This document shows, one piece after another, positions 14,114 through 16,590 of a stretch of DNA of 34,846 bases (position 1 is the first letter of the stretch; each line of letters begins with the position of its first letter). The DNA is from a virus. The notes beneath the pieces were generated by a model. That model was given only the letters and a program-made list of their open reading frames with translations, was not told the origin of the DNA and ran no database searches. The stretch lies in IMG/VR virus record IMGVR_UViG_3300042471_000014, positions 1-34,846 of that record. The stretch is one strand, 5' to 3'. Made by a program: the position numbers and the translations under genes.

Positions 14114-14184
14114 CGGTGTGCGCAGTTGCCATTGCCGCACCTTCGGGGAAAGCGCCAGTTGGTGTGAGTACCTTCTTTTTTTAA
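14110..14184 (+). CDS. Possible 24-aa coupled leader peptide
   Basis: An ATG at 14110 overlaps the TGA of the RusA-like gene. The frame runs 24 codons to a TAA at 14182-14184, which overlaps the AAGGAG of the small-terminase gene. The product would be small and hydrophobic, ending Phe-Phe-Phe. Position suggests it could keep ribosomes moving to the next gene. It may equally be chance; there is no independent evidence. Confidence 0.25.
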   Translation: MTVCAVAIAAPSGKAPVGVSTFFF

Positions 14185-14195
14185 GGAGTTTACAA

Positions 14196-14708
14196 GTGAC
14201 TGATAACTTGGCGTCAGAAATGACAGTGCAAAGAGAAGGCCCAGGCCGTCCAGCTTTGTTTCCGGCAGAACATGAGGCTTGGCAAAATATCCTGCGTGGC
14301 ATCTCAGAAGGCAAAAGCCTGACCAGCACCCTTAGAACCGAGGGAATGCCCAGTTACTCGCTGGCGCGTCAAATGATCAAGAACAACCCAGAGTTCAGGG
14401 CGGCTTACGAAAAGGCCGTAGAAGACCGCGCAGACCGTTTGGCAGAGGAAATCATTGAGTTGTCAGACAAAGAGCTTCCAGACGGTTTAGAAGGCTCTAT
14501 GGCCAGTGCTTGGGTTCAGCAGAAACGTCTGCAAGTTGAAGCACGCAAATGGGTGGCTGCCAAACTTAAACCAAAAACCTACGGTGACCGCATTGATGTT
14601 GCCGTAACCGATCACAGGATTAGCGTCATGGATGCGCTGACCCAAGCCAAACAGCGCGTGTTGATGGATAACAGTAACGTGGTAGATGTGGAAGCAAAGC
14701 AGGCGTAA
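14196..14708 (+). CDS. terS: Terminase small subunit (Sf6-like)
   Basis: A GTG at 14196 with AAGGAG seven bases upstream gives 170 aa; the open frame to 14118 lacks such a site. A helix-turn-helix region (SLTSTLRTEGMPSYSLARQM, about residues 43-63) is followed by NPEFRAAYEKAVEDRADRL. The KLKPKTYGD segment then matches Sf6-type small terminases. TerS rings recognise the packaging site and stimulate TerL. The large subunit follows after a 355-base non-coding gap, unusual because terS and terL normally touch. Confidence 0.87.
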   Translation: MTDNLASEMTVQREGPGRPALFPAEHEAWQNILRGISEGKSLTSTLRTEGMPSYSLARQMIKNNPEFRAAYEKAVEDRADRLAEEIIELSDKELPDGLEGSMASAWVQQKRLQVEARKWVAAKLKPKTYGDRIDVAVTDHRISVMDALTQAKQRVLMDNSNVVDVEAKQA

Positions 14709-14717
14709 TCGGAAAGG

Positions 14718-14781
14718 TTATGCGCTTTTTGCATAAAAATTGTACGGTTACGCGCACGCGCACGAGTTGCGTAAACGCAAC
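14718..14781. other. Two hairpins after terS
   Basis: TTATGC...GCATAA (14718-14736, seven-base loop) and GTTGCG-TAAA-CGCAAC (14766-14781) are both perfect six-pair stems. Between them is a CGCGCACG-type repeat. Neither is followed by a U-run on the plus strand, although A-rich tracts follow. They may end or process the terS message or be part of the origin-like region. Confidence 0.45.
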
Positions 14782-14854
14782 AAAAAGAAAGCCAAACAAC
14801 AAGAAAAGCATCGTCCACTTTATACAATGACCATTATGTTAAGTTGACCTTGAG

Positions 14855-14943
14855 TTATCCACAGAAAAAATACTACTCAGGCATTACAGTTTGAGTTATC
14901 CACAAGCAATTGTGGACAATTGTGGAAAAGTACCTGTGGACAA
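14855..14943. promoter_or_regulatory. Cluster of DnaA-box-like sites
   Basis: Exact TTATCCACA occurs at 14855-14863 and 14896-14904. The inverted near-match TGTGGACAA occurs at 14911-14919 and 14935-14943, and TGTGGAAAA at 14921-14929. Five sites within 89 bases, two of them perfect consensus, is the layout of a bacterial DnaA-dependent origin. CCACAA-GCAA-TTGTGG (14900-14915) also makes a hairpin. An AT-rich tract follows at 15013. The gap 14709-15063 contains no convincing gene. Confidence 0.75.
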
Positions 14944-14960
14944 CCGCCCAGCCGGCCATG

Positions 14961-14989
14961 GGGGAGGGGGTAGGGCCGGCGCGAAAGGG
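14961..14989 (+). other. G-rich block with quadruplex potential
   Basis: Between the DnaA-box cluster and the AT tract the plus strand has G5-A-G5-TA-G3 followed by another GGG after about eleven bases. Four runs of three or more G's can form a quadruplex with loops GGA, GGTA and a long third loop. The surrounding 50 bases are strongly G/C-rich, unlike the rest of the genome. Confidence 0.45.
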
Positions 14990-15012
14990 CCGCAGGAACG
15001 GTAGCCCCGCGA

Positions 15013-15054
15013 ACATTTTTTAAAATATTTTTATTTTTATTTTTTTCGTTTAAC
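15013..15054. other. AT-rich tract, possible unwinding element
   Basis: About 40 bases made almost wholly of A and T, in runs of T5-T7 and A4, lie between the G/C-rich block and the terL start. Beside DnaA boxes such a tract commonly serves as the DNA unwinding element. It also leaves terL without any ribosome site. It could alternatively be an UP-element-like promoter region or terminator tail. Confidence 0.5.
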
Positions 15055-15063
15055 ATCGCGCAA

Positions 15064-16590
15064 ATGCAAACCACGATCTACAAGCCCGAAGACGAACAAG
15101 AGTTGATGGCCACTCTGTGGACACCGGCGATTGCCGATGACCCAGAGGCGTTTGTGCTGTTTGCCTTCCCTTGGGGTCAGGAAAATACACCCCTTCAAAA
15201 CTTCAAAGGCCCACGCAAGTGGCAGCGCGAAGTTCTGCGTGAGATTACTCAGCACATCAAAAACAACCAGGGCAAAGTAGACTTCAACACCTTGCGCAGT
15301 GCGGTGTCTTCTGGCCGTGGTATTGGCAAATCTGCCCTCGTGTCCTGGCTCACCATCTGGATGTTGTCTACCCGCATAGGCTCAACAACGATCATTTCGG
15401 CCAACAGCGAAGCACAGCTGCGTGCGGTGACATGGGCCGAGATCACAAAGTGGTTGGCCATGAGCATCAACAGCCATTGGTTTGAGGTTGCGGCCACCAA
15501 GATCACCCCTGCTGCCTGGCTAACTGAACTGGTTGAAAAAGACCTTAAAAAAGGCACACGTTATTGGGCTGTTGAGGGCCGTCTGTGGTCTGCGGAAAAC
15601 CCAGATGCCTATGCTGGTGTTCACAACTTTGATGGTGTGATGGTGATTTTTGACGAGGCAAGCGGTATTGACGACTCGATCTGGGCTGTGACGGCTGGCT
15701 TCTTTACCGAGAACACACCGAACCGCCTTTGGTTGGCTTTTTCCAATCCACGGCGAAACACTGGCTACTTTTATGAGTGCTTTAACTCCAAGCGCGACTT
15801 TTGGAATAACAAGGTGGTTGACGCACGCACCGTAGAAGGCACTGACAAGGCGGTATACCAGAACATCATTGACGAATACGGCCCCGACTCAAGCCAGGCA
15901 CATGTCGAGGTCTATGGCATGTTCCCATCTGAAGGTGATGACCAGTTTATACCGGCTGACATTGTTGATGAGGCCATGGCACGGCCCAAATACAAGGATC
16001 AGACGGCGCCAATCATCATTGGTGTTGACCCTGCACGCTTTGGCGCTGACGCAACGGTGATTGCTGTGCGCCAAGGGCGCGACATTGTGCGCATTGACAG
16101 GCATCGAGGTGATGACACCATGACGGTTGTTGGCCACATCATTGAGGCCATCGAGGAATTTAGCCCTGCACTGGTGGTCATTGACGAAGGTGGGCTTGGC
16201 GCTGGCATTGTTGACCGTTTGAAGGAACAAAGGTACAAAATCAAAGGTGTCAACTTTGGCAATAAGTCGGCAAATCCGATCATGTATGGCAATAAACGCG
16301 CTGAAATGTGGGGAAAAATGAAAGATTGGCTAAGAACCGCAAGTATTCCTAAAGATAGGTTCTTGAAAACTGATTTGGTTTCGCCTATGATCAAGCCAGA
16401 TTCTAGGGGCACTATATTTTTGGAGTCAAAGAAGGACATGAAGGCTAGAGGTTTGGCCAGTCCTGACGCAGCTGACGCTATTTGCGTTACATTTGCGTTT
16501 CCTGTGGCTCATAGGGAATATACTGCGAAGGAAAGAACCCGCGCATATTCTGACCGCACGGCAGTTGCAACTTCATGGATGGGAAGTTAG
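15064..16590 (+). CDS. terL: Terminase large subunit
   Basis: This 508-aa packaging motor has Walker A SGRGIGKS at 83-90 and Walker B VMVIFDE with Asp197-Glu198. The RNase-H nuclease follows, with Asp322 in GVDPARFGAD, Asp374 in VVIDEGG and Asp468/Asp471 in SPDAADA. It cuts concatemers and pumps DNA through the portal. No Shine-Dalgarno precedes ATG 15064; Met 15106 is an alternative without a better site. The last 300 bases or so use more A/T-ending codons than the first part, suggesting mosaic joining. Confidence 0.93.
   Translation: MQTTIYKPEDEQELMATLWTPAIADDPEAFVLFAFPWGQENTPLQNFKGPRKWQREVLREITQHIKNNQGKVDFNTLRSAVSSGRGIGKSALVSWLTIWMLSTRIGSTTIISANSEAQLRAVTWAEITKWLAMSINSHWFEVAATKITPAAWLTELVEKDLKKGTRYWAVEGRLWSAENPDAYAGVHNFDGVMVIFDEASGIDDSIWAVTAGFFTENTPNRLWLAFSNPRRNTGYFYECFNSKRDFWNNKVVDARTVEGTDKAVYQNIIDEYGPDSSQAHVEVYGMFPSEGDDQFIPADIVDEAMARPKYKDQTAPIIIGVDPARFGADATVIAVRQGRDIVRIDRHRGDDTMTVVGHIIEAIEEFSPALVVIDEGGLGAGIVDRLKEQRYKIKGVNFGNKSANPIMYGNKRAEMWGKMKDWLRTASIPKDRFLKTDLVSPMIKPDSRGTIFLESKKDMKARGLASPDAADAICVTFAFPVAHREYTAKERTRAYSDRTAVATSWMGS

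Follow-up and report, generated by a model that had tools for sequence, protein, structure and literature searches.

A host-type XerCD-like site joined to a phased DnaA-box array: a candidate recombination element between the terminase genes of tailed phages

Main finding

In the DNA of a tailed phage known from IMG/VR record IMGVR_UViG_3300042471_000014 (34,846 nucleotides, the whole of which is referred to here as the window), a real cluster of DnaA-type boxes is one half of a rigid two-part element, the other half being a copy of a XerCD-type site that lies ten bases ahead of the first box. From sequence comparisons, we lean towards reading the 127 bp at 14817-14943 as a composite locus in which a site for the host XerCD recombinases, of the plasmid dimer-resolution type, is combined with a DnaA-box accessory array. 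The element is widespread among tailed phages of freshwater bacteria that lack an integrase, and it probably serves to recombine their DNA with host enzymes. A preliminary description of the window had suggested a bacterial-type replication origin at this place; tailed phages in which a XerCD site of host type is joined to a proposed accessory array of DnaA boxes are a more specific finding than that.

The box cluster and its setting

The window carries a 239-bp terminal repeat with one mismatch within its single virus record, and the phage is therefore assigned a circular map of ~34.6 kb. It is P22-like, with an Sf6-type TerS and a P22-type portal. As had been described, terS and terL are separated by a gene-free gap of 355 bp (14709-15063), and the two perfect copies of TTATCCACA and three inverted one-mismatch copies reported from this gap were all found, five boxes within 89 bp (14855-14943; Table 1). 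The inverted repeat GTTGCGTAAACGCAAC at 14766-14781, between terS and the Xer-type site, is possibly a terminator. What the preliminary description had missed was the 28-bp XerCD-type site at 14817-14844 and the fact that the G/C block and AT tract are conserved independently.

Table 1. Features of the terminase locus in the window
Feature	Position	Strand	Remarks
terS (Sf6-type small terminase)	14118..14708	+	PF20901 E 9.7e-30; phrog_1482
Putative XerC-arm half, ACTTTATACAA	14817..14827	+	10/11 identical to best family dif
Central hexamer TGACCA	14828..14833	+	NNNCCA-like, variable among phages; host dif has TGTATA
Putative XerD-arm half, TTATGTTAAGT	14834..14844	+	Nearly invariant in relatives; equals Rhodoferax ferrireducens dif arm
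Spacer, 10 bp	14845..14854	+	Length fixed, sequence free
DnaA-type box 1, perfect TTATCCACA	14855..14863	+	Sequence match
DnaA-type box 2, perfect TTATCCACA	14896..14904	+	41 bp (~four helical turns) after box 1
DnaA-type box 3, TTGTCCACA, inverted	14911..14919	-	Sequence match
DnaA-type box 4, TTTTCCACA, inverted	14921..14929	-	TTATGCACA or TTATCCACA in relatives
DnaA-type box 5, TTGTCCACA, inverted	14935..14943	-	Sequence match
G-rich core GGGGGAGGGGGTAGGGCC..AAAGGGCC..ACGGTAGCCCCG	14960..15009	+	Separate element; cos/pac packaging-site candidate
AT-only tract	15015..15046		Directly after G-core; travels with G-core, not with boxes
terL (large terminase)	15064..16590	+	phrog_2 E 1.6e-42

Perfect TTATCCACA is absent from the rest of the window genome on both strands, and when one mismatch is allowed, 17 sites are present in the window against 7.3 expected, with no other stretch equalling the cluster at 14855-14943. 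More than two boxes in any 89 bp were seen in 0/300 Markov shuffles of the window, and shuffles of the gap with more than two boxes numbered 0/5000, against the five observed. Across the complete records of relatives, too, the box cluster is limited to the terminase locus, and substitutions within the boxes are essentially limited to positions 1 (T/A), 3 (A/G) and 5 (C/G), the TTATNCACA pattern expected of DnaA boxes. Perfect TTATCCACA also occurs just upstream of or near the dnaA start in five host-family genomes. The substitution pattern in relatives and the occurrence near host-family dnaA support the view that the boxes are real, conserved, unique to one locus per genome and of the host-DnaA type.

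No DnaA-domain protein was found in the window phage, which has a primase-helicase. A phage-encoded DnaA domain was considered as the reader of the boxes and set aside: the window has none, and of the other viral records searched MW202483 alone has one. In that related phage (MW202483.1), the protein at L122 1510-1806 is a stand-alone DnaA domain IV (PF08299, E 3e-19), and a TGTTTACAT array lies at the place matching the window box array. TerS was likewise rejected as the reader: TerS and box type change independently. An ATTAC block occupies the same position of the spacer between boxes 1 and 2 (window 14864-14895) in both phage groups. An IHF-like site between these boxes is absent in the window; some relatives have weak matches, with IHF scores >=8 in 11/75 box 1–box 2 spacers where 3.4% were expected, most of them at a single offset, which is a weak signal.

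A site of XerCD type

A TerL search yielded 80 related viral contigs, and in an alignment of 47 sites the strongest conservation upstream of the G-core falls on the Xer-type site just before the boxes, which in the window reads ACTTTATACAA-TGACCA-TTATGTTAAGT (14817-14844) and ends ten bases before box 1. Judged by its sequence, this segment appears to have the form of a XerCD recombination site of the host type. The dif site of Rhodoferax ferrireducens is printed as ACTTGATACGATGTATATTATGTTAAGT, i.e. ACTTGATACGA-TGTATA-TTATGTTAAGT (PMC2731167), and the window is identical to it at 11/11 positions of the XerD arm and 9/11 of the XerC arm. The XerD arm of the window is also identical in the six host-family dif sites found without mismatch. 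Across the family genomes around a Rhodoferax metagenome-assembled genome (MAG) that contains phage relatives, the dif-like sites are mostly ACTT[ACGT]ATACGA-TGTATA-TTATGTTAA[GA]T, against a phage XerC arm of ACTTNNNACA[AG], and the phage site differs from the nearest host dif by one XerC-arm base and the central hexamer. Among the 86 distinct sites listed from the scan described below, the centre is CGACCA in 21, TGACCA in 16, TGTCCA in 13 and CGTCCA in 7, with others besides. In XerCD sites the XerD arm is the best kept, the XerC arm less so, and the centre is free (PMC11724359); the phage site has the two 11-bp arms, the centre within 6-8 bp and the order of conservation that characterize the sequence of such xrs (PMC11724359).

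Rigid coupling of site and boxes across phages

A scan of the viral collection for nothing but the Xer pattern recovered at least 86 distinct sites, and boxes were then called at a threshold of >=8/9 matches in the 130 bp on the XerD side. Among the matches listed, every site (86/86) has a DnaA-type box within these 130 bp, and the boxes take the same places: a forward box exactly at +10 from the XerD arm in 76/86, a forward box at +51 in 75/86, an inverted box at +66 in 67/86 and an inverted box at +89/+90 in 60/86. Forward boxes at +9, +11 or +12 occur in none of the 86 sites listed, and the XerC sides of these 86 hold 17 boxes in total. Ten of the 86 sites listed have no >=8/9 box at +10, some of them showing other spacings, e.g. 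inverted boxes at +9/+20, and the relative L107 has lost the segment from box 1 to box 2. The 10-bp spacer is free in sequence, with 47 distinct versions in 106 collected modules, for which a box at +10 was the condition of entry.

The site and boxes also move as a block. They are inverted together relative to terL in L010/L250, L314 and L332, and seven of the collected modules, L250, L314 and L332 among them, have the entire unit reversed with respect to terL; in the three named the direction of the G-core is unchanged. Extra CACTAAC/GTAAGT repeats lie between the inverted unit and the G-core of L250, L314 and L332, and similar repeats are found in L173 and L176, from which the unit is absent.

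The unit recurs far from the window phage. About half of the collected modules belong to phages whose TerL is ~26-32% identical to that of the window or was undetected in the locus, and in four of the distant phages, read closely, the unit again stands between a TerS-like gene and terL. This shared placement may be old and common rather than several times acquired. In many relatives the unit is separated from terL by a gene whose start is constant (MPIYNALAQRPANMLAYQDSLSAT...) and whose C-terminal halves are exchangeable (L004 from 1576, L007 from 3916, L012 from 349, L028 from 3680), like a polymorphic virion-borne effector. Searches of plasmids and of a phage collection gave no convincing match to the Xer–box module, and the element is not described in the literature surveyed on DnaA boxes in phages, on Xer sites in tailed phages and on DnaA together with Xer, a survey that covered few subscription journals.

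The G/C block and AT tract

The G/C-rich block of the preliminary description is present at 14960-15009, and the AT tract that follows it is shorter than had been stated, with 32 bp of pure AT (15015-15046) and not 40. In more than 100 relatives a conserved G-core (GGGGGAGGGGGTAGGGCC..AAGGGCC..ACGG) and AT tract lie directly 5' of terL or of terS-terL, and both are kept without the Xer site or boxes in L074-L077. In the collected modules the AT run follows the last box at variable distances, from 70 to 106 bp, and the tract is missing downstream in several carriers of the unit (L248, L257, L280, L307). A similar order is seen at the genome ends of HK97, where a G-run ~50 bp before the end is followed by T-rich sequence before terS. 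The G-core and AT tract are an element distinct from the Xer–box unit and most likely a packaging site (cos/pac). Contig ends were considered as proof of a cos site in the G-core and do not clearly cluster there; a single sample supplied two contigs that stop just short of the G-run.

The window has only two GGGNAGGG (KOPS-type) octamers, which overlap within the G-core, at 14961 and 14968. That they serve as KOPS for the loading of FtsK in connection with the Xer site was rejected, the motif being kept also in relatives without the Xer site. In the 84-type relatives (L037-L073, L125-L214), tandem 9/10-bp repeats lie upstream of the G-core, and their units differ despite near-identical terminases: TTGTCCACA, TGACCCAAA, TGACTCACA, TGACTTACA, TTGCCTACA and CTACCCACA.

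Host link and search for integrated copies

Close relatives of TerL were found only on two phage-like contigs of one Rhodoferax MAG. No tyrosine integrase or ParA was found in 23 records, in a search whose controls were detected. The module of Xer site, 10 bp and box was present in 0/399 genomes of the host order, and the phage-type Xer pattern had four matches in 401 family genomes, none of which is followed by boxes and two of which have a TGTATA centre. Within the sampled genomes (~800 of the host group), integration at dif is not indicated.

Proposed mechanism

A fixed, phased distance from a recombinase site to an array of binding sites is the signature of an accessory sequence, and host XerCD with DnaA as helper is therefore proposed. 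Host XerCD would recombine directly repeated copies of the site on phage DNA, whether in circular dimers or, possibly, in the terminal redundancy after injection, and the products would be monomeric circles formed without a phage-encoded recombinase. The box array would serve as the accessory sequence: DnaA at the phased boxes would bring two sites together by folding the DNA, or would act as a gate for the reaction, a role that ArgR/ArcA and PepA have at cer and psi. There, the folding of two sites, and with it the resolution of dimers, depends on PepA and on ArgR or ArcA sites placed at defined positions (PMC11724359).

The dif-matching arms, the coupling of Xer site and boxes, the free spacer, the joint inversion, the lack of integrase and ParA in the records searched and the relative in a Rhodoferax MAG all support recombination by XerCD. 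Several points count against it, among them the ten listed sites without a >=8/9 box at +10 and the loss of a box segment in L107. Enterobacteriaceae replicons in the 30-100 kb range as a rule carry a resolvase of their own, a site for monomerisation would be of no evident benefit to a strictly lytic phage, and the 84-type relatives exist without the Xer site. Furthermore, the accessory sequences described to date flank the XerC arm (PMC11724359), and the phage boxes are on the XerD side.

A broader suggestion, which we advance tentatively and regard as possible but short of probable, is that host DnaA acts as a XerCD accessory factor in a widespread group of tailed phages, with the phased boxes on the XerD side activating or gating monomerisation or circularisation and tying it to the replication state of the host. 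XerCD sites on mobile elements are known on plasmids and in filamentous phages, where the helpers are ArgR, ArcA or PepA. A XerCD site that matches the host and comes with a fixed DnaA-box array, found in at least 86 distinct viral copies, would be a new type of accessory sequence, one connecting site-specific recombination with the initiator of replication. The element also suggests how common freshwater phages could use host enzymes to make or keep monomeric circular genomes.

Alternative explanations

The boxes, G/C block and AT tract had been taken for the layout of a chromosomal origin, and the locus does hold the cluster of DnaA boxes that a DnaA-dependent origin has. In this case DnaA at the boxes would open the AT tract 70-95 bp away, and the Xer site would be a mere neighbour, as in plasmid maintenance regions. 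The uniqueness of the cluster, the conserved arrangement of its five boxes, the AT tract that follows them in many loci and the presence of a primase-helicase in a phage without a DnaA-domain protein all suit an origin, yet we judge it unlikely, as it is the distance from Xer site to boxes that is constant, at 10 bp, and that from boxes to AT tract that varies. The unit inverts away from the AT tract, some of its carriers lack the tract, and in other relatives the tract and G-core persist without boxes and look like a packaging site, so that an unwinding element at fixed distance and orientation is not seen. Nor is there a switch from low to high GC skew at the site: skew falls from left to right in the window and in 21/24 loci of W-type relatives (those of the same type as the window), the reverse of what an origin shows, and is higher on the right in 3/24, while the distant group is mixed, with a rise in 10/14. 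Skew, block inversion and variable AT distance therefore leave the oriC layout unsupported, although DnaA bound at the array may also help replication. The same boxes might instead sequester host DnaA or regulate late genes. With five boxes in each copy of the genome, a large number of DnaA molecules could be bound late in infection, and the site stands before the late genes, but titration or transcriptional control would leave the fixed spacing to the XerCD-type site unexplained, and the unit occurs in either orientation. A gene of 1.3-2 kb precedes terL in many relatives, which makes the DnaA control of terL proposed earlier unlikely; we consider this whole class of explanation improbable.

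An attP through which XerCD would integrate the phage at host dif, like those of filamentous phages (IMEX), would explain arms that match host dif in a phage with no integrase gene. We give it little credence, because the central hexamer is consistently unlike the TGTATA of dif and no integrated copy came to light at host dif in the 399 order and 401 family genomes; close TerL relatives in prophages are limited to the phage-like contigs of the one MAG, and to our knowledge DnaA boxes are no part of known IMEX sites. Least probable of all, and to our minds very doubtful, is that the boxes are TerS-binding sites of the packaging region that resemble DnaA boxes by chance. Their position between terS and terL and the adjoining conserved G-core, with its counterpart in the G-run ahead of the HK97 cos end, would be in keeping with such a role, but the boxes stay while TerS diverges to ~65% identity, the arrays of 84-type relatives change while TerS stays alike, the substitutions follow the DnaA pattern, and the boxes invert independently of the G-core.

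Comparison with known systems

Like the clusters of oriC type, the phage array lies close to an AT tract and keeps several TTATNCACA boxes in a fixed order; unlike them, it is phased to the XerCD-type site and not to the AT tract, and its skew and block inversion do not fit. The attP sites of the IMEX CTXphi, VGJphi and TLCphi resemble the phage element in having a dif-like site, no integrase and recourse to host XerCD, as proposed here; these phages are filamentous and integrate at dif, whereas the element described here has no integrated copy in the genomes searched and a centre that differs from dif. With the dif of Comamonadaceae, the phage site shares an identical XerD arm and 9-10/11 positions of the XerC arm, and it differs in having an NNNCCA-like centre in place of TGTATA, in its attached DnaA boxes and in not being chromosomal.

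Cre-loxP of P1 is a phage recombination site that keeps DNA monomeric, and PepA and ArgR are without action on loxP (PMC2409434). P1 encodes its own recombinase, whereas the window phage would rely on host XerCD. The pac/loxP neighbourhood of P1 may offer an analogue for circularisation, and we know of no DnaA boxes in the P1 lox unit. A pdif site of an Acinetobacter plasmid (oligo ODN3) reads ACTTCGTATAA-TCGCCA-TTATGTTAAAT (PMC7399989), with a XerC arm similar to that of the phage site and likewise an NNNCCA centre, and the sharing of this centre fits the phage site to the plasmid class. Acinetobacter pdif sites flank mobile gene modules, whereas each phage genome has one site together with a DnaA-box array.

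The centre of psi is GATCCA, and cer (ColE1) and psi (pSC101) are the systems to which the proposed element is best compared. They are plasmid sites with an accessory sequence of ~200 bp on the XerC side that binds ArgR/ArcA and works with PepA; in its place, the element of these ~35 kb tailed dsDNA phages has ~100 bp of DnaA boxes on the XerD side. Common to both are a 28-30 bp unit of XerC arm, short centre and XerD arm, the use of host recombinases, which is predicted for the phages, the lack of an element-encoded recombinase, and an adjoining accessory sequence whose protein-binding motifs stand at defined positions, the boxes at +10, +51, +66 and +89/90 being present in most of the 86 phage sites listed.
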